A DNA stretch of 64,000 nucleotides, taken from the NCBI RefSeq assembly GCF_004379335.1, contig NZ_CP038013.1, positions 620,001-684,000 on the forward strand, read 5' to 3'. Shown piece by piece: positions 48,360-62,029 of the stretch. The translations under genes and the position numbers were made by a program. This stretch comes from Spiroplasma gladiatoris (GTDB lineage Bacteria; Bacillota_I; Bacilli_A; Mycoplasmatales; Mycoplasmataceae). Position 1 is the first letter of the stretch. Each line of letters begins with the position of its first letter. Under the pieces are notes generated by a model that searched no databases, was not told the origin of the DNA, and worked only from the letters and a program-made list of their open reading frames with translations.

Positions 48360-51300
48360 GTTCTACTACTACATAATTTTACAGGGTACCATAACAGATG
48401 GAAGTTATGCAACAAGAACACTTACGTTCTACTACTACATAATTTTACAGGGTACCATAACTACCACCTCTTTTAGAAAATATGCCAAGTTGTTCTACTA
48501 CTACATAATTTTACAGGGTACCATAACTCTTCCCTTGTTTCTGATTAACAGATCTATTGTTCTACTACTACATAATTTTACAGGAAACCATAACTACGGA
48601 TTTGTTCCATTTGTCAACCATTAAGTTCTACTACTACATAATTTTATAGGGTACCATAACAAGGAGAAATATATGTTTAAAGCTTTATTAGTTCTACTAC
48701 TACATAATTTTACAGGGTACCATAACCACTTTTAATAAATTCTTCTTTTTGATTTTGTTCTACTACTACATAATTTTACAGGGTACCATAACTAGAAGAA
48801 TTAGACAAACAAGATGCTATTAGTTCTACTACTACATAATTTTACAGGGTACCATAACTTGTAAACTTGCATTTTTATATAGTCATTAGTTCTACTACTA
48901 CATAATTTTACAGGGTACCATAACAATGAGCTACGTCAAGATGGTGGACAAATGGTTCTACTACTACATAATTTTACAGGGTACCATAACAACGAATATA
49001 TTGCTAGTTTGATATTTGTTGTTCTACTACTACATAATTTTACAGGGTACCATAACTAATGAAAGATTGTGATTTATGTATAGAATGTTCTACTACTACA
49101 TAATTTTACAGGGTACCATAACCATCCTTCTTAGTTCTTTCTAGTTTTTTGAGTTCTACTACTACATAATTTTACAGGGTACCATAACATGGGTCACAAT
49201 GAAAAGTTATGAGTGTTTGTTCTACTACTACATAATTTTACAGGGTACCATAACTCTGTAAGTTACTTGCCTTACATTTATATAGTTCTACTACTACATA
49301 ATTTTACAGGGTACCATAACATGGATATGTTTAAAACCAATTCTGTTGATGTTCTACTACTACATAATTTTACAGGGTACCATAACTAGTTTGCATTTCA
49401 TTGTTGTCTCATTGTGGTTCTACTACTACATAATTTTACAGGGTACCATAACAATTTCTTTGTTAAATGCCTTTCATCTAAAGTTCTACTACTACATAAT
49501 TTTACAGGGTACCATAACAACCTTTTTCAAATTTTCGATCTAGTCAAAGTTCTACTACTACATAATTTTACAGGGTACCATAACTCTGCAAGGAGTGAGT
49601 GACAATATTTTTATGTTCTACTACTACATAATTTTACAGGGTACCATAACTCTTGTTTTCAATTAAAATTTTTATTAATAGTTCTACTACTACATAATTT
49701 TACAGGGTACCATAACAATAAGTGGTGAAACTTATATTGATTTTTTGTTCTACTACTACATAATTTTACAGGGTACCATAACATGAAGATAGATTTAGAA
49801 AAAGATTTACAAGTTCTACTACTACATAATTTTACAGGGTACCATAACGCACTTGGAATATCGTTAATGTCAATTGTTGTTCTACTACTACATAATTTTA
49901 CAGGGTACCATAACCTGTTGTGATTAAATTAAATGTATATACTTGTTCTACTACTACATAATTTTACAGGGTACCATAACTATTAAAAGAGTGAACATTC
50001 ATTTTTTTAATGTTCTACTACTACATAATTTTACAGGGTACCATAACCTGTTTCTTTATTTTCTATTGATATTAATAGTTCTACTACTACATAATTTTAC
50101 AGGGTACCATAACAATAAGTGGTGAAACTTATATTGATTTTTTGTTCTACTACTACATAATTTTACAGGGTACCATAACTAGCCTTTTGTTCTTCAAATT
50201 CTTTTCAATGTTCTACTACTACATAATTTTACAGGGTACCATAACTACACAAACTTTAAGATTAACCCATTTGTAGTTCTACTACTACATAATTTTACAG
50301 GGTACCATAACGAAGGAGCAATTTTAAGAATTGACGGAGAAGTTCTACTACTACATAATTTTACAGGGTACCATAACTATAACTTATATTAAAAACAACA
50401 TTTTTTAGTTCTACTACTACATAATTTTACAGGGTACCATAACCCTCATTCGCTTCTTCTCAACTATCTTCGTGTTCTACTACTACATAATTTTACAGGG
50501 TACCATAACTTAATTTATATCTAATTTTAAACATTTTTAGTTCTACTACTACATAATTTTACAGGGTACCATAACAACACCTTGAGTTTTAATATAAGGT
50601 ATATTGTTCTACTACTACATAATTTTACAGGGTACCATAACGTTGATTTAGCAGATAAATTAAAAGATTTTGTTCTACTACTACATAATTTTACAGGGTA
50701 CCATAACTCTGTAAAGTACTTGCCTTACATATATATAGTTCTACTACTACATAATTTTACAGGGTACCATAACGCAAACGAGTTGGACAATGAAGTAAAG
50801 ATAGTTCTACTACTACATAATTTTACAGGGTACCATAACTCACTAGAAATATTGTAATCAATTCCTTCGGTTCTACTACTACATAATTTTACAGGGTACC
50901 ATAACTATCAAATATAATTTTTCTTCCTATGAACCGTTCTACTACTACATAATTTTACAGGGTACCATAACACTACAATTATGTTGTTTTACATAAAACT
51001 TGTTCTACTACTACATAATTTTACAGGGTACCATAACTCATTAATGTTTAACCTTTTTACTCTCTTTTGTTCTACTACTACATAATTTTACAGGGTACCA
51101 TAACAAAGGCTTACTAATGTTTAAGGTATCTAACGTTCTACTACTACATAATTTTACAGGGTACCATAACTAAGAAATCAAATGGTTGCAAAGTCAATCG
51201 GTTCTACTACTACATAATTTTACAGGGTACCATAACAATAAACTCATTTGAAAACAAATTTGTCTTGTTCTACTACTACATAATTTTACAGGGTACCATA

Positions 51301-54300
51301 ACGGCAAATTTAAATATGTTGGATTAGATAGCGTTCTACTACTACATAATTTTACAGGGTACCATAACAACAATACCCTAAATTTTTTTTGCTTAATAGT
51401 TCTACTACTACATAATTTTACAGGGTACCATAACTTGTAAGTCTTGGTGGAAACCCACTTGTTTGTTCTACTACTACATAATTTTACAGGGTACCATAAC
51501 ATGACTTTGTTGATTGTCATTGTGTATAATGTTCTACTACTACATAATTTTACAGGGTACCATAACTATCTCCCATTATATTTTATAATTTGCAATGTTC
51601 TACTACTACATAATTTTACAGGGTACCATAACATAAGTAGTATTTAGGCATAGTTTCTTGTAGTTCTACTACTACATAATTTTACAGGGTACCATAACAA
51701 GTGAAGAATTTTACCTTGATTAGGTTTAGTTCTACTACTACATAATTTTACAGGGTACCATAACTAGTTAAAGTCTTAATAACAGATTGAGCATGTTCTA
51801 CTACTACATAATTTTACAGGGTACCATAACCAAACAACATATGTTTTGGCAAAAAGATAAGTTCTACTACTACATAATTTTACAGGGTACCATAACATCT
51901 AGTTGCAAAACTTTTTAAATTACAAGGTTCTACTACTACATAATTTTACAGGGTACCATAACTGAATAACAACTCATACTTTTAATTTTTTTGTTCTACT
52001 ACTACATAATTTTACAGGGTACCATAACGTTTTTGGGTCAATATAAAAATAAACTCAAGTTCTACTACTACATAATTTTACAGGGTACCATAACTTATCT
52101 GATGATCGATTAGTATTTTCACAAGTTCTACTACTACATAATTTTACAGGGTACCATAACATACTATCAATAAAAGTTTCTTTTAGTTCTGTTCTACTAC
52201 TACATAATTTTACAGGGTACCATAACGTATAAATATGTATATTTCTTTTTATATCAGTTCTACTACTACATAATTTTACAGGGTACCATAACCACTAGTT
52301 GGTGGTGAAATTGCTGCTAAAAGTTCTACTACTACATAATTTTACAGGGTACCATAACTGGTTTTGTATAAATCATAAAGCAAATATCGTTCTACTACTA
52401 CATAATTTTACAGGGTACCATAACACATAACAACATCTAATAACTCAGTTAAAAGTTCTACTACTACATAATTTTACAGGGTACCATAACATAAAAACAT
52501 ATGTAATACACTATTTTTATGTTCTACTACTACATAATTTTACAGGGTACCATAACTATGAGATGATATTAATTGATAGGAGAAAAGTTCTACTACTACA
52601 TAATTTTACAGGGTACCATAACCAAGGACATTAATTAGTTAATGTTCCTTACGTTCTACTACTACATAATTTTACAGGGTACCATAACTTTTATAATGAA
52701 TTAGATAATTTTAAAAAAGTTCTACTACTACATAATTTTACAGGGTACCATAACCATCACTGTCTTCATCTATTACAATGCAGTGTTCTACTACTACATA
52801 ATTTTACAGGGTACCATAACTATCTCATCAACCTAATTTGTAGTGATTGAGTTCTACTACTACATAATTTTACAGGGTACCATAACATAAAATGTTTTCA
52901 TAAGCATCTCTTTATCGTTCTACTACTACATAATTTTACAGGGTACCATAACTTAGAAATAGTAAACACATGCAAAGAAAATGTTCTACTACTACATAAT
53001 TTTACAGGGTACCATAACTAGTTGATATTAAAACCAATCGTGTATTAGGTTCTACTACTACATAATTTTACAGGGTACCATAACGGAAGGCCATAATATC
53101 AAGGAATAGCTTTTGTTCTACTACTACATAATTTTACAGGGTACCATAACTTAAAAAAGATGAAGATGACTTTGAATTTGGTTCTACTACTACATAATTT
53201 TACAGGGTACCATAACTCAATTTGTAGTTGGTTTGCTTTAATAAAAGTTCTACTACTACATAATTTTACAGGGTACCATAACAGAACAATTACAAAATAT
53301 ATTAGATATATTGTTCTACTACTACATAATTTTACAGGGTACCATAACTATTTTGATATTTTTTTACATTTAATTTTTGTTCTACTACTACATAATTTTA
53401 CAGGGTACCATAACAACGAGCTACGTCAAGATGGTGGACAAATGGTTCTACTACTACATAATTTTACAGGGTACCATAACGTCCTGGCGAAGGTTATGCA
53501 ATCCCAAAAAGTTCTACTACTACATAATTTTACAGGGTACCATAACTATCTCCCATTATATTTTACAATTTGCAATGTTCTACTACTACATAATTTTACA
53601 GGGTACCATAACTGTAGCAATTTTCTATACAATTGCTACATAGTTCTACTACTACATAATTTTACAGGGTACCATAACACAAAAGAGCAATTAATAGAAG
53701 CATTAACAGTTCTACTACTACATAATTTTACAGGGTACCATAACCCAACGAGCAAAGCCAAAATTTTTGAAAAAGTTCTACTACTACATAATTTTACAGG
53801 GTACCATAACTTGATATATGGTTGCTAAAAATAATAACGAGTTCTACTACTACATAATTTTACAGGGTACCATAACGATTGTATTTTTTGTTTAATGAAT
53901 AAACAAGTTCAACTACTACATAATTTTACAGGGTACCATAACGATTTATATCATTTCTAATTGCTACTAAAAGTTCTACTACTACATAATTTTACAGGGT
54001 ACCATAACAGATTGTAAAGTAACTTGATAGACTATCTCGTTCTACTACTACATAATTTTACAGGGTACCATAACAAACAAGGGATGAGTGAGTTTTAAAC
54101 TTATGTTCTACTACTACATAATTTTACAGGGTACCATAACTTGTAATATATTGTTTTGCTAAAACTCCCAGTTCTACTACTACATAATTTTACAGGGTAC
54201 CATAACAACAATGAAAAGGTAACAATCAAGGTATGGGTTCTACTACTACATAATTTTACAGGGTACCATAACACTCCACCATACAAATAAAAAGACTTGA

Positions 54301-54734
54301 TTGTTCTACTACTACATAATTTTACAGGGTACCATAACAATCAACAATTTCCAGATTTTGATATTTTTGTTCTACTACTACATAATTTTACAGGGTACCA
54401 TAACACCATTGTACTATCAATCATTAATGTTTTAGTTCTACTACTACATAATTTTACAGGGTACCATAACTAGCGAATGTACTTACAAATTAGTTATAAC
54501 GTTCTACTACTACATAATTTTACAGGGTACCATAACACATTGTTTCATAATCTTCTGTTAAATCTAGTTCTACTACTACATAATTTTACAGGGTACCATA
54601 ACGGTCAATGTATTGTAATATTTTCTTTGTTTGTTCTACTACTACATAATTTTACAGGGTACCATAACATGTTAATTCAACTGCTCATTCCATTTCATGT
54701 TCTACTACTACATAATTTTACAGGGTACCATAAC
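48360..54734 (-). CRISPR. Type II-A CRISPR array, 97 repeats and 96 spacers
   Basis: Counted along the sequence: 97 repeats of 36 bp and 96 spacers, 93 of 30 bp and three of 31 bp (before 48559, 50012 and 51069). In the transcribed (minus) direction the repeat begins GTTATGGTACCCTGT and ends GTAGTAGTAGAAC. Minus-strand transcription is supported by the tracrRNA antirepeat, by the ATTTGAG leader at the high end, and by repeat decay at the low end (repeats at 48559 and 48625 each differ from consensus). One further variant is at 53907. Newest spacers are therefore at high coordinates. Repeats are otherwise identical, which points to an active array. Spacers read as AT-rich, phage-like sequence; several encode open frames. 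Confidence 0.99.
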
Positions 54735-54770
54735 CTCAAATCAAGTGTTTTTAAAAAATAATTATAAGTT
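54735..54770 (-). promoter_or_regulatory. Minimal CRISPR leader with ATTTGAG and array promoter
   Basis: Only 27 bp separate the first repeat from csn2. On the minus strand the bases touching the repeat are ATTTGAG (54735-54741), the sequence known in type II-A leaders to position Cas1-Cas2 integration. A TATAAT box (54761-54766) overlaps the csn2 stop codon, about 27 bp before the repeat; a weak TGTTTT could be the -35 element 17 bp further up. Confidence 0.75.
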
Positions 54771-55691
54771 TAAAAGGTAATGGAAAACAGGATAATTTAT
54801 TTCTAAATTTTTACTATTATAACTACTTATTAAGTTTTTAGTATTTAAAAGTAGCTCATTATAAAAGTCATTTTCTAAAGTACAATTTGAAAAATTCATA
54901 TAAAACTTTAAATTATCAATAATAACTGATAAATCTAGAAACTTATTATCTATTCATATTTTTAAATTTTCTAGATTTAAATCATCTTCATAAATAAACT
55001 TGTCACTAACAATTGTAAATTTTTTTAATTCTTTTATTTCATCAAAAAACTCTTTTATTTCTGTATAATTTAGCCCAAAAAATGGATTTACAAATAAAAA
55101 ATGTAAATTTTTATCATCAATTATTAATAAATTTTTTAATATTTCAATATATATTATTCTTAACTTAGCTTGATTTAAATAAGTGTTGGTTTCATTATCA
55201 TCATTATTTTGTAACTTTAAAATTGTTTGATCACAAATATAGTTTATGATTTGATCTTGAATCTCTATAGTTATTTTTAAACCTAATTTAGATTCTAAAT
55301 TAGTAATTAAATTTTCAATTATTTTGAGTTCAGTTAAATCAATTGTATTAATAAACCCAAATAAAGTTGATAAACTTTGAGAAGAAAAAGCATCATAAGT
55401 TATACAAAGATTTAATAATTCTTTTAAAATAGTTTTACTTCCTCCACAAATACTTTTAGAAAAATCCATAAAGTTGGGTACCTTTATTAATTTAGTTGTT
55501 GATTTATCTATCATAATATCATTTTCTTGCATTTTAATTTCATAATCTGGACTTGAAAATTTGTTTAAAAAACTTAAATTTAAAGCTAGTTCTAAATCAT
55601 TTATAGTATCTAAATTATTTATAATAAATACATTATTGTTTGTAAAATTAAAGTTAATACTTTTATTACTATTTTTATTTAAAATTTTCAT
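54762..55691 (-). CDS. csn2: Csn2-like CRISPR adaptation protein (long form)
   Basis: A 309-aa protein in the csn2 position, directly after cas2 (last base of cas2 stop shared) and before the array. It has no motif I can name with certainty, but it is acidic/lysine-rich with a beta-rich start (INFNFTNNNVFIINNLDTI) and a helical middle like Csn2. Canonical Csn2 is ~220 aa; longer Csn2 groups exist in streptococci and mycoplasmas. TGA at 54952 is Trp, and a standard-code reading would lose the last 64 residues. It should bind DNA ends during spacer capture together with Cas1-Cas2 and Cas9. Confidence 0.8.
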
Positions 55692-56014
55692 TATATTTCT
55701 ATAAGCCTCCTATCATCATTTATTAATTCATTATTATTTTTTTTACCAACAACAATCTTAATATTTTGATATTGTTTTTCTGTAATAATTAGAAACCTTA
55801 CATTACCAAGCTTAGGTAAAAATTTATTAATTCTTTTAATAACAAAATCAACACTTTCTTTGTTGTAACAAATTTTTGAATAAATTGAATATTGCATCAT
55901 GTGAAACCCTTCTTTAAATAAGTTATTTCTAAATTTATTATAAGATCTTACATTTTCTTTAGAATCAAAAGGTAAATCGTAAAATACCATTAATCTCATA
56001 AATCTATAGCTCAT
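55691..56014 (-). CDS. cas2: CRISPR-associated endonuclease Cas2
   Basis: Small ferredoxin-fold subunit of the spacer-integration complex, 107 aa. The first strand has LMVFYDLP with the conserved Asp, followed by RSYNKFRNNLFKEGFHMMQ and YSIYSKIC as in II-A Cas2. The C-terminal strand (KIVVG) pairs with Cas1 in the complex. It overlaps the end of cas1 by 11 bp. Confidence 0.95.
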   Translation of the reverse strand: MSYRFMRLMVFYDLPFDSKENVRSYNKFRNNLFKEGFHMMQYSIYSKICYNKESVDFVIKRINKFLPKLGNVRFLIITEKQYQNIKIVVGKKNNNELINDDRRLIEI

Positions 56015-56909
56015 AATATTCTACTGATGAACTTATAGGATAAATTATATGATTATTGTATTTATCTTCAAAAAAGTTTAAAACCATATCAACATATTTA
56101 TCAATAGCATTTGTTAAATAGATTTTATTATTACCATAAATAACTTTAGAGTTTAAAATATTTATTAATTCTAATTTTGTAGATCTAGAAAAATAATCAA
56201 TTTGTGTTACATATTTATAAACATAATTATCAACAATTGGGCGAAATGGTTCCATTAAATCATCTGCAAGAGCAAAAGCATTGTACATATTATGATGAAA
56301 TAAGGCTATGCTTGGATGAAGCCCTTTTGAAGTAATTGATCTGATAAATGCATTTCTTATAATTGTATAACCAAAGTTTAAAGCTGCATTTATGTGATTT
56401 TCTTTTTCTCTTGTAAAAGTGTTTCCAAATAGTTCTTTAAAATAAACCTTAGCAGCATGTCCTTCTCTATTTGTTGAATCACTAAATTTCATTTCTTCAA
56501 TATATTTGTATAACAAGTTAACTTTTTCTAGACTTTTTAAGTTAACTTTTAATATATCAATTTGTGCTTCAATTTTTTGTTTTACAATTTGTGTTCATAA
56601 ATATAATTTATCTTCTTTTTTTCAATTTAATTGATTATTAATAATTTTTAATTGTAAGTGATTTGCTTCAATTGGTTGAATAATCGATATTGGTTTTAAC
56701 TCTACATCACAAATTAAAGTTAAAATCTTTTTTTGAGCAAGTTTATTAATAATTCTTGTAGTAACAACAGTTTTATAATTTTCAAATAATATCGCATTAA
56801 TATCATCAAGTGGGATATGATACTTAACATTTGCACTTTCAACAACTAAATTATTTAAAAATAAATTTATTCTTTCTCCGTCTTTAATAATTATTGTTTT
56901 TCAAGACAT
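56004..56909 (-). CDS. cas1: CRISPR-associated integrase Cas1
   Basis: Integrase that inserts new spacers, 301 aa. The metal ligands fall at Glu149 (TNREGHAAK), His205 (SIALFHHN) and Glu220 (ADDLMEPFRP), the usual trio, so it should be active. The N-terminal domain begins MSWKTIIIKDGERI, typical for II-A. TGA is read as Trp at residue 3 and others. No strong ribosome-binding site is visible before ATG 56909; it starts 7 bp after the tracrRNA terminator. Confidence 0.96.
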
Positions 56910-56916
56910 TTTTTAA

Positions 56917-57006
56917 TAAAAAAAGAGGAATAAATTCCTCAGTTACGGCATTAAAGCCTTATATATGATAGTCCTGTAAAATTATGTAGTAGTAGAACTC
57001 ATATAC
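56917..57006 (-). ncRNA. tracrRNA
   Basis: Minus strand, between cas9 and cas1. It begins with 26 bases identical in sense to the low-strand repeat (56973-56998), so it pairs fully with the crRNA repeat. Then ACTATCATATA can form the lower stem with crRNA GUUAUGGU, leaving an AC / ACU bulge. Next comes a short hairpin GGC-TTTAAT-GCC (nexus-like) and a terminator GAGGAA-TTTA-TTCCTC followed by seven T (56918-56940). Order antirepeat, bulge, nexus, terminator is what Cas9 tracrRNAs show. The 5' end near 57006 is inferred from the promoter. Confidence 0.9.
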
Positions 57007-57012
57007 ATAATT

Positions 57013-57042
57013 AATATATCACATAATATTTTAATTAGTCAA
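57013..57042 (-). promoter_or_regulatory. tracrRNA promoter overlapping the cas9 stop
   Basis: TTGACT (57037-57042) and TATATT (57013-57018) spaced 18 bp on the minus strand. The -35 box uses the last two codons and the first stop base of cas9. Start of transcription is expected around 57006, just before the antirepeat. Confidence 0.7.
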
Positions 57043-60000
57043 GATATTTTATTTTTGTTCTTGTTAAATTTGATGTAACAAGTCTGATTTTTTTCATTTT
57101 CTTAATAGTCTTGAAAATTCTTTTACCTTTTTCAACACTTTTATTTAAAAATTTGAACTCAAAACTTTCTGAATTCTTATTAAATCCCACAACGATATAA
57201 TTTAAAATTTCACCATCATATTCAAACATCAATTCATTATTTTTAAATAATGTGAATTTTTTCTTATATGTTTCATCAATTTTATATAATAATTTTTCTT
57301 GCTCATACTCTTTTGTTTTAAAATTAATATTTGAGTTATTTTTATTACTTACAAAATATGCTACTTTATGAGTAATTGGTAAAACTTTATACAAATTATA
57401 TTGTTGTGAATAAAATAAGTCTCAACCTAAAGTATTTGATCCTGTCATTACAATTTCTTTACCTTTTTTAATATTTTTAAATTTATGAGTAATTTTTGTA
57501 TATTGATTAACAACTCCATTATTGTATTTTAAATATCTTATGTTTGGTGGATTTTTTTCATTGGATTGTTTTAAAATCTTTTCATTTAATTCATAAACAA
57601 AATGATGAAATGGGTTTTTAACTGGTTTATTATCTTTATCAACATCATTTATATAAGTATCATATATTTTTTTTAAATGATTAAATGTTTTTGGATCTGA
57701 CTCATAAACTAATAAATCTTTATAATCTATGGTAAATAACTTATTAATTTTTTTTATTTTTTCTGAATCTTTTGATAATAAATCTATTTTTTCAATTTTA
57801 TATAGATTATTGTCAATTACTTTGCAACTATAAATAGTTTCATTAAACATCATTTTGTTTGAACTTTTTTCTATCTTTTTAGTAAATTTATAATCAAAAC
57901 TATTAATGTCATTAACGATTAAGTTTATTTCTTCTCTTTTAATAATTTCTTTTTCATCTAATTCTCCAATTATTTTATTCATAGTTCTTCCATCATAAAT
58001 ATCAATAATTGGAGCTAATGCACAAATTGTTGCATCCACTGCATGATGTTTAAAATCATCACGATCTTTTTTAGGTAAATATAAGAAGTTATTTCTTATA
58101 TAATTTGTAAATCCCCCATTAATTGTTTTAATTGAATAAGGTTTTTTTAATTCTTTTTTAAAAAAAGTTAAATAGTTTTTTACTTCTAAAGTTGCATATC
58201 TAGTATCATTTAAGTTTCTATTAATAAAACTTTTTTTAACTTCTGTGTCATTTATATCTTGTTCAAATATTAAATTTTGATACTTATTATAACCATACTT
58301 TCCAAATTTTTTACTTCCAACATAATTTATATACATTAATGATTTAAATTGTTCTCAATCACGATGTATTTCTCTAAAGTATTCATATGGTGTTTTTTTA
58401 CCCTTTTGTTGATTTTCATTTTGTAATACCAATACTTTATTGGTTCTAGAATCGTCTAATGACACTGAAAAAGGAATAATATGATCAATTTCACAATAAT
58501 TTGGATCATTAAAAAGTCTAGTTATATCTATTTTTTCACCAGAATACACACATTTACCATCTTGTTCATTTAATAAAGTTAATTTTAATCTTGTTTTAAA
58601 ATCAATTCTTTTAGTGTTTTGATTATAATTTTTTTCAATTTCAGTTCTTTCTTTTTCATTTTTCTTTTGAATTTCATTAATATATTTTTTTCTATCTTCT
58701 GAATTTGATTCTCTTGCTAATTCAATTACAATATCTTTAATTTCAATATCAGACATTTTTTCAATTTCTTTAATGATTTTTAAACTTTCAATTAAAGATC
58801 TTTTAACAACTGGAGATATATACATCTCTGAAATTTTTTGTCTTAAAACAGGCATTTTTGTAAATTTTCTATCTATTTTGATGTTGTAATCTGGTTTTAT
58901 ATTATTTTCAGAAAAAATTTGCATGTGATTTTTATTTTCATATCACATTTCTTCAATAGCAATATTCATAGTTTTTGCACTTAGACTATGAGTACCTGTT
59001 AAACTTATTAAACTAATTGCTTCAATTTGTTTATCATCTAATAAATTGCTATTTATTTTTAAAAGTTGTTCTTTTCTAGAATCTGAACTTTGAAAAACAG
59101 TTAGTATTTCTACAATTTTATCTAATAAATCAATATTTTTTAAACTTATAAAATCATACTTTAAATTTGAACTTATTAAAATACTTCTAATTTTATTAAT
59201 AGATTCAAATTTTGTGAAATTTGGTTTTTCATCTTTATCGATTCGATAACCAGTAATATCACTTTCTTTTACTTTTAATAACTTTGCAATAATTTTTAAA
59301 GTAATATTTTTACTTTTAGTACCATCATGGTTTATTACAGATTCAATTACTTCATACTTTTGATCATAAGTTAAACCGTTTTCAACACCATTAATCTTTA
59401 AATTACATAAATCATTTAAAATATTAAATAAGTATGAAGTCATTGAATGTTTTGGTGCTCTTTTTTCTTTACTATTATATGTATCATAACCAGAAAGACG
59501 TTCAAAAAATTCTGATTCATCTTTTCAGCCATACTCACTTTTAGTTGTTTTTGAACTAGTAGTTCATCCAGGACCATCAAAATATTGTCTTTTTCTTTCG
59601 TATAATTTTATAAAACTTTCTTTAAATTCTTCATTTATTAAACCATTAGCTATTTGTGTATCTAATATTTTTTCGACTTCTTTTTTATATCAATCATGAG
59701 CAATTAATGCATCTTCTGCTTTTAATCCTCGATACTTACCAAATGTTTTAAAATTGTTTGCTTGAATATCAACAGGAAGTTTATCTTGTTTTGCATTAAT
59801 TTCATCTAAACTAACATCTTCTTTTTTTTCTTTTTTTAATTCCATTAAATCGTCTTTATAATTAAAACTTCCTCTTTTTTTAGTGTAATTATAAAGTATT
59901 AACATTAATTCTTGTAAACTTATATTATTTTCAAGTGATTTTTTTCTAACTTCTAAATAGTCAATATTAAAATCAAGTTTATAAAAATCTTCATAACTAT

Positions 60001-60244
60001 TTAAAAAATCAAACTTTACAAATAAATTTAGTAAATCTCTTTTTCTTAAAACTTTTCTTCTTAGATTTCTTCTTCTTCCTCTTTGCATTCTTCTATCAGA
60101 AGTAGTAGAAGTTTTTTGACCTCCAGCATTTGCTTCACTAAATAAACGTGATCCTGCATTTATGATTTTTTTATTTTCTATATCATAAATTGATCATCCA
60201 ACTGAAGCTATACCTATATCTAATCCTACATTTACTTTTTTCAT
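57035..60244 (-). CDS. cas9: Cas9 endonuclease, compact (1069 aa), type II
   Basis: RNA-guided DNA nuclease. RuvC-I is [12 protein letters not shown] with Asp9; an arginine-rich bridge helix [16 protein letters not shown] follows at ~54-70. RuvC-II is IVIELARES with Glu508; HNH has [10 protein letters not shown] with Asp587/His588 and Asn611; RuvC-III is FKHHAVDAT with His734 and Asp737. All catalytic residues are kept. The length is near that of small Cas9s such as S. aureus, despite a csn2 next door. Fully open only if TGA is Trp (at least five sites). ATG 60244 has AAAGGAG. A PAM cannot be deduced from this window. Confidence 0.97.
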
Positions 60245-60524: not shown

Positions 60525-61898
60525 TTAACTTTCTATGTTAAATAAATCTTTTAAAATATGTGTTGAAAATCCACTAATTAAAACTACATTTTTTTCATTT
60601 TTAACCACTGGAAAACTTTGATCAATATCAAAGTCAACATTTCAAAAAATAATTTTTGGCAACTCAAGATTATAACTTTTAAATTCGTTTTTTCAATGTT
60701 CAAAGTTACTATCTTGATTATTTGATGTAGCTTGGTTAAACTCCATATCACTAATAATTAAAATATATTTTGGATTATCAGAGAAATTATTATTATTTTT
60801 CATAGATAATATTATTTTTTTAAATACTAGATCGATATTAGTCGTGCCAATTGCATCATGCGTTTTTAAAATATTAAAATCATCAATAAAATTACCTTTT
60901 AATTTAATAAATTTAGGTTGACTTTCAAATTCAATCAAAACATTTTTAAATACGCCTTGATTTTGATGTGCTAAAAACATTCCTAAACCCATTGAATTGT
61001 ATAAAGGCAACCCTTCCATAGAACCACTAAAATCACACACTGGTAAAATATTTGTGTTTTCTGAACTACAATTTTTTTCATATTAATTCAATATGCAGCA
61101 GCTTCATTTATATCATAAAAAGCATGTTCGATAATTTCGTATGCAAAAAAGTTATTAGCATTTAAATTATTTGAATCACTAATTGATTTATTTATAAAAT
61201 CATTGTATTTATCAAAATCATTTCTACTAAAAGCATTTGCATATTTTTTCAAAGATTTACCTGATAAGTTACTATAATTTATACTTTGATAATCTTTGAT
61301 TCTTAAGTTATTTTCAAAAAGGTTTAATTTAACTCTTAAACTTGTAAGTAATTTACGATATGCTTTGTAATCAAAGTTTTTATCAAAATTTAGTTTAACT
61401 AAGTTAACAAATTTTTTAGCTAAAGTTATTTGTTTATAACTTGAAGCGTTGATTGAAGGCATTCATTTTGAAATTAATGAAATACTTTTATCACTTCGAT
61501 TAACTTCGCTAATTAAAGTTGAATAAATTAATTCAATTAAACGCAAATCTGTTGAATTAATTGCAAGATTAATTGCATAATCATATCTACCTATTTTAAA
61601 ATAACATCAAATAAAACTTGACGATCAACTTTATTACTTAAAAAATTAATCATCTTTTTGATACTCTTCTTTCTCCTTTTCCTCCTCTTATATCTAAGTA
61701 GTTTAAAAAGTTAAGAATAAATAGTTTGTTATTTTCTTCTCAAGCTTCATCAAAAACTTCTTTTAATAATTCGACAGGATAAAATTGTAAATTTTTAGAA
61801 AAAAGATCTAAGTTTTTATTTAAAGTAGATAAATAAGCAATAGCATTTTTGGTATTTTTTATTTGGTTAAGTTGATTTTGTAATTCAGTTAAAACCAT
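60525..61898 (-). pseudogene. DUF2828 (TROVE/vWA-like) gene with three frameshifts
   Basis: Read through three frame changes the region encodes a full DUF2828 protein of ~458 aa: YLDIRGGKGERR, KIGRYDYAINL, ISKWMPSINASSYKQITL, YRKLLTSLRVKLNLFE, the metal-binding VCDFSGSMEG, IISDMEFN and the final KIIFWNVDF..VLISGFSTH. All three shifts are single missing bases in homopolymers (T6 at 61640-61645, A4/T4 at 61594-61601, A7 at 61072-61078); adding one base to each restores the frame exactly. So it is either a recent pseudogene or carries sequencing errors. Start ATG 61898 behind GGGGG. Function of the family is unknown; the architecture recalls Ro60. Confidence 0.85.
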
Positions 61899-62029
61899 AT
61901 AAATACCCCCTAAAAGACACAAAAAAATAATTTTTAAAAAATTAAATATTTTTAAGTTTTTATTATTTTTTACAAAGATTTTTAATACTATTTATAACTC
62001 GTTAATTTTTATTATACACTTATTTATGT

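Follow-up and report, generated by a model that had tools for sequence, protein, structure and literature searches.

The Type II-A Locus and Its Array

The DNA analyzed in this work (hereafter the window) is a stretch of 64,000 nucleotides of the chromosome of Spiroplasma gladiatoris (NZ_CP038013.1, positions 620,001 to 684,000), and all the coordinates given below are positions within it. The chromosome of this mollicute is 1.16 Mb long and its genes read through TGA as Trp; cas9 (57035-60244, minus strand), which encodes a protein of 1069 aa, is open under code 4 and matches TIGR01865 with an E value of 1.1e-180. According to the NCBIfam matches, cas9 shares one operon with a type II cas1 (56004-56909; TIGR03639, E 3.7e-85) and cas2 (55691-56014; TIGR01573, E 3.6e-21), all three lying on the minus strand. 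On the same strand, csn2 (54762-55691) was recognized by the PADLOC Csn2 model (E 3.8e-116 over 309 aa), and the search of its product against Pfam and NCBIfam gave no match. A tracrRNA (56915-57003, minus strand), located between cas9 and cas1, comprises an anti-repeat (GTTCTACTACTACATAATTTTACAGG), a nexus-like hairpin and a terminator hairpin with a U run. Lastly, a short leader (54735-54761, minus strand) separates csn2 from the array and ends with ATTTGAG beside the first repeat, an end similar to the sequence that anchors the leader in the type II-A systems of streptococci. The CRISPR array itself (48360-54734, minus strand) is composed of 97 repeats of 36 nt, whose sequence in the crRNA sense is GTTATGGTACCCTGTAAAATTATGTAGTAGTAGAAC, and of 96 spacers of 30-31 nt. 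Upstream of cas9, on the minus strand (60525-61922), three adjacent short open frames resemble the pieces of one broken gene.

The nearest solved structures to this Cas9 are those of SaCas9 (PDB 7eni/5axw, E about 1e-124), and the system as a whole is an ordinary type II-A one with a SaCas9-like Cas9. It is like the type II-A systems of Spiroplasma and Mycoplasma described by Ipoutcha et al. (2019, PMC6882279), both in the presence of cas9, cas1, cas2, csn2 and a tracrRNA and in the 36-nt repeat, the 30-nt spacers and the SaCas9-like Cas9. That survey of mollicute CRISPR systems found few protospacers and reported no PAM, whereas the present analysis puts forward a family of capsid-type protospacers together with a candidate PAM of the NNGA type.

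A Pair of Spacers Differing by One Base

Counting from the leader, the 20th spacer of the array, s20 (53415-53444, minus strand; plus-strand sequence AACGAGCTACGTCAAGATGGTGGACAAATG, crRNA CATTTGTCCACCATCTTGACGTAGCTCGTT), and the 88th one, s88 (48925-48954, minus strand; plus-strand sequence AATGAGCTACGTCAAGATGGTGGACAAATG, crRNA CATTTGTCCACCATCTTGACGTAGCTCATT), share 29 of their 30 bases. The sole difference falls at base 3 of the plus strand, where s88 carries the AAT allele and s20 the AAC one, exactly as a first-pass annotation of the window had claimed. The separation and the relative age that it had assigned to the two spacers are borne out as well: 67 spacers intervene, s88 is the leader-distal, older member of the pair and s20 is the leader-proximal, newer one. 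Since unrelated pairs of spacers of the array show a similarity nowhere near that of s20 and s88, their likeness is not due to chance; moreover, the spacers flanking s20 are all different from those flanking s88, and therefore the pair did not arise through the duplication of a block.

The same annotation had assumed that the array is transcribed from the minus strand and that the differing base thus lies in the PAM-proximal seed, and both assumptions hold. The minus-strand repeat pairs exactly with the anti-repeat of the tracrRNA over 26 nt, forming a duplex of -46.7 kcal/mol, versus -6.5 kcal/mol for the plus-strand repeat; the minus strand also carries every cas gene and the tracrRNA; and at 54735 the array meets a leader that ends in ...ATTTGAG. 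These three features indicate minus-strand transcription, and the similarity of Cas9 to SaCas9 supports the same orientation. In the crRNA, the differing base is therefore number 28 of the 30 spacer bases, separated from the repeat by the last 3 nt on the PAM/seed side.

The pair is not the sole near-repeat of the array. Two other spacers, s70 (50114-50143) and s76 (49717-49746), are identical to each other; s18 (53547-53576) and s48 (51567-51596) differ by one base, 20 nt from the PAM side; and s61 (50708-50737) and s83 (49255-49284) differ by three, placed 8, 9 and 24 nt from it, all of them being on the minus strand. The identity of s70 and s76, and the distance of the change in s18 and s48, imply that recapture without any change in the seed also happens.

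The Putative Target Gene and the PAM

The search of phage and prophage genomes that the first-pass annotation had proposed returned homologous prophage genes and neither of the two alleles. Exact and degenerate searches with the s88 and s20 protospacers found none in IMG/VR, in the phage collection and in the S. gladiatoris genome itself, and an exact protospacer of either allele was found neither in 320 genomes of the order nor in the viral contigs; the whole array, used as one contiguous query, gave only matches at chance level. At the peptide level, homologues of the encoded NELRQDGGQM occur in three genomes of the genus, that is NELKQDGGQM in the genome G182 and NELRQEGAQM in G190 and G192, with translated scores of 50 and 43 (shuffled spacers reach at most 35). 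These prophage homologues fix the reading frame, and the change between the two spacers is indeed from Asn to Asn, as had been read from the letters alone.

The homologous gene encodes about 280 aa and lies within a prophage with a terminase nearby. Five of eight homologues weakly match the major head proteins of PHROG 422 (best E 0.00048), so that the target is putatively the gene for the major capsid protein of a tailed phage; comparing its sequence with those of solved structures gave no identification of the protein, and no relatives of the gene were found in the genome-contig and viral-contig collections. Homologous capsid genes are present in several mollicute genera. The Asn of interest is encoded by AAT in all seven close homologues and in a distant one. 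Judging by this consistent use of AAT, the AAC allele of the newer spacer is probably the derived one, with the caveat that AAT is also the preferred Asn codon (316 versus 66 in the host genes).

As for the PAM, the PAM-side flank is TGGAA in five of the seven close capsid homologues. Sister arrays with the same repeat match the same G182 prophage at 1-4 mismatches, and G occupies the third position of the 3' flank in six of nine likely protospacers of the S. gladiatoris array and its sisters, which are few sites whose cognate Cas9s may differ. The sister-array flanks, together with the capsid site, are suggestive of an NNG PAM. The Cas9 of M. gallisepticum CA06, another mollicute enzyme with a 3' PAM, recognizes the five-letter NNGAD (PMC11893278); the TGGAA and TCGAA flanks observed here fit this motif, whereas some other flanks do not, and for the Cas9 of S. 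gladiatoris we infer the PAM from such flanks.

One-Base Pairs in Mollicute Arrays

About a quarter of the positions of a spacer lie no farther than 8 nt from the PAM side, and thus the seed position of a single pair is hardly evidence. The comparison was therefore extended to the arrays that mollicutes carry close to a type II cas1 gene (64 arrays, 2,207 spacers); 63 of them had repeats long enough to be used, and one edge was counted per spacer cluster. Within arrays, 44 near-identical and 77 identical pairs of spacers were found; between arrays there were four near-identical pairs, none of which with one or two differences. Nine of the 12 one-base pairs differ at no more than 8 nt from the PAM side, versus 3.2 expected, and a permutation of the mean distance gave p=0.0011; the 8-nt cut was picked after the data had been seen, the permutation test requires no cut, and the statistic is based on 12 events. 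The bias persists after removal of the three arrays from which the idea had come, i.e., that of S. gladiatoris, L052 and L057 (seven of nine within 8 nt, p=0.0033), and after removal of the arrays that had been re-oriented by the strand of cas1 (six of eight, p=0.010). Pairs with three to five differences show no seed bias (p=0.26). The pattern of the one-base pairs fits the expectation that a second capture is kept mainly where the first spacer works poorly.

A replication set beforehand on other Firmicutes (90 arrays in two sets, 2,069 spacers) yielded too few pairs to have any power: one one-base pair, differing at 12 nt, and one two-base pair, with differences at distances 1 and 2. One-base pairs are commoner in the mollicute arrays (12 among 2,207 spacers) than in these arrays of other Firmicutes (1 among 2,069).

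Origin of the Spacer Pair

The reading that we favor, with a probability of about 0.6, is that s20 represents the recapture of a phage variant that s88 handled poorly. The type II-A system would have captured a protospacer in the putative capsid gene, carrying the AAT allele of the conserved Asn, as s88; much later, the exact same protospacer, with the same PAM, would have been captured as s20 from a variant bearing AAC. On the new target strand the s88 crRNA would form an A:C mismatch 3 nt from the PAM, in the region where Cas9 tolerates mismatches least, and would probably be weak against the AAC variant, and hence a second capture might have been worth keeping. The leader-proximal position of the AAC spacer and its single change, placed in the seed of the same protospacer as s88, are in agreement with this idea. 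Studies on SpyCas9 report that escaper phages bear mutations in the seed or in the PAM (eLife 2020, PMC7105378) and that the hosts answer with further spacers. As far as the part of that work considered here goes, it concerns laboratory populations and describes no recapture of the same protospacer, whereas in this case the array is a natural one, the recapture is read from it and the escape is a putative one.

The first-pass annotation had gone further, interpreting the pair as a silent escape in the seed followed by recapture. This account fits the seed bias of the mollicute arrays; on the other hand, neither allele was found in the phages, viral contigs and genomes searched, and the array would look the same whether the phage had escaped under the pressure of s88 or a variant already in circulation had been captured. 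The variant may have arisen under s88 pressure rather than from standing diversity, and the loss of immunity is likewise putative. At least one further spacer, s92 (48661-48690, minus strand), is directed at the same phage family as s88 and s20, and therefore a single change in the seed would still have left the phage exposed to it.

The alternative that survives best, which we regard as unlikely although still deserving attention, is a neutral divergence of the phages: two related phages would differ by many silent substitutions, a favored protospacer would have been captured twice, and the position of the change in the seed would be incidental. Recapture with or without change is indeed documented by s61 and s83, which differ by three bases, and by s70 and s76, which differ by none; wobble positions are evenly spaced along the protospacer, about a third of them being in the seed, and the pairs of other arrays with three to five differences lack the bias. 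However, neutral divergence does not predict that nine of 12 one-base pairs should have their difference so close to the PAM side (8 nt or less).

A change within the array, i.e., the duplication of one spacer by recombination followed by mutation of one copy in the chromosome, appears improbable. The internal repeats differ from their consensus at 0.0016 positions per base, a value from which about 0.1 differences would be expected per pair of spacers, and block duplications are present in some arrays. Nevertheless, s20 and s88 share no neighboring spacer, and such a process predicts no seed bias, unlike what is seen in the mollicute arrays. The silence of the change is also relevant here, provided that it is evaluated in the proper frame. 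Being synonymous in some open frame was dropped as evidence, since a random change in this spacer has a probability of 0.82 of being so (10 of the 12 one-base pairs pass this test, versus 7.1 expected, p=0.06); silence became evidence only with the frame fixed by the homologous prophage genes, in which case, according to our own count, a change would be synonymous by chance with a probability of about 0.23. On this basis, the silent change would make an origin in phage DNA under protein constraint about four times better supported than a mutation in the array.

Finally, that two different elements (a phage and a plasmid, or two phage genera) share this capsid stretch and were each captured once is very improbable, because, even though homologous capsid genes are known in several mollicute genera, every homologue recovered departs from the spacers at six or more of 30 bases, so that elements sharing 29 of 30 must be close relatives.

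If one-base pairs mark changes in the seed, the arrays would keep a history of phage counter-adaptation that can be read without phage isolation, and both natural escape and the variation allowed in a capsid gene would become testable in a group whose phages are almost unknown. Whether escape in the seed and recapture have occurred repeatedly and can be read from the type II arrays of mollicutes in general, including the three-allele series of the array L125, so that single natural genomes would show the phage bases that had changed under the pressure of Cas9, is in our opinion evenly balanced.

Other Observations on Mollicute Arrays

In L125 (G227:C3:52000-71999), oriented by the strand of cas1, the spacers 3, 7 and 34 (in crRNA order) are alike but for a single base, T, A or G respectively or in some other order, located 5 nt from the PAM side; in the open frame AKEAFIKLI, each of the three alleles gives an Ala codon. 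In four other arrays, L052 (from the genome G191), L131, L132 and L136, blocks of several consecutive spacers are duplicated, probably via recombination between repeats.

The site of s92 is also that of spacer 36 in the array of the genome G194 (L055), which has one mismatch with the G182 prophage; it extends from just upstream of a 137-aa gene of the G182-type prophage into the start of that gene. Two host species thus target one site, with the same PAM-side end.

Another spacer, s58 (50906-50935), had no match at up to three mismatches in the S. gladiatoris genome outside the array, and it resembles a chromosomal stretch, possibly metK, that is conserved in many mollicutes. In G182, the sequence following the s58-like stretch starts with GTTATGGT and is repeat-like.
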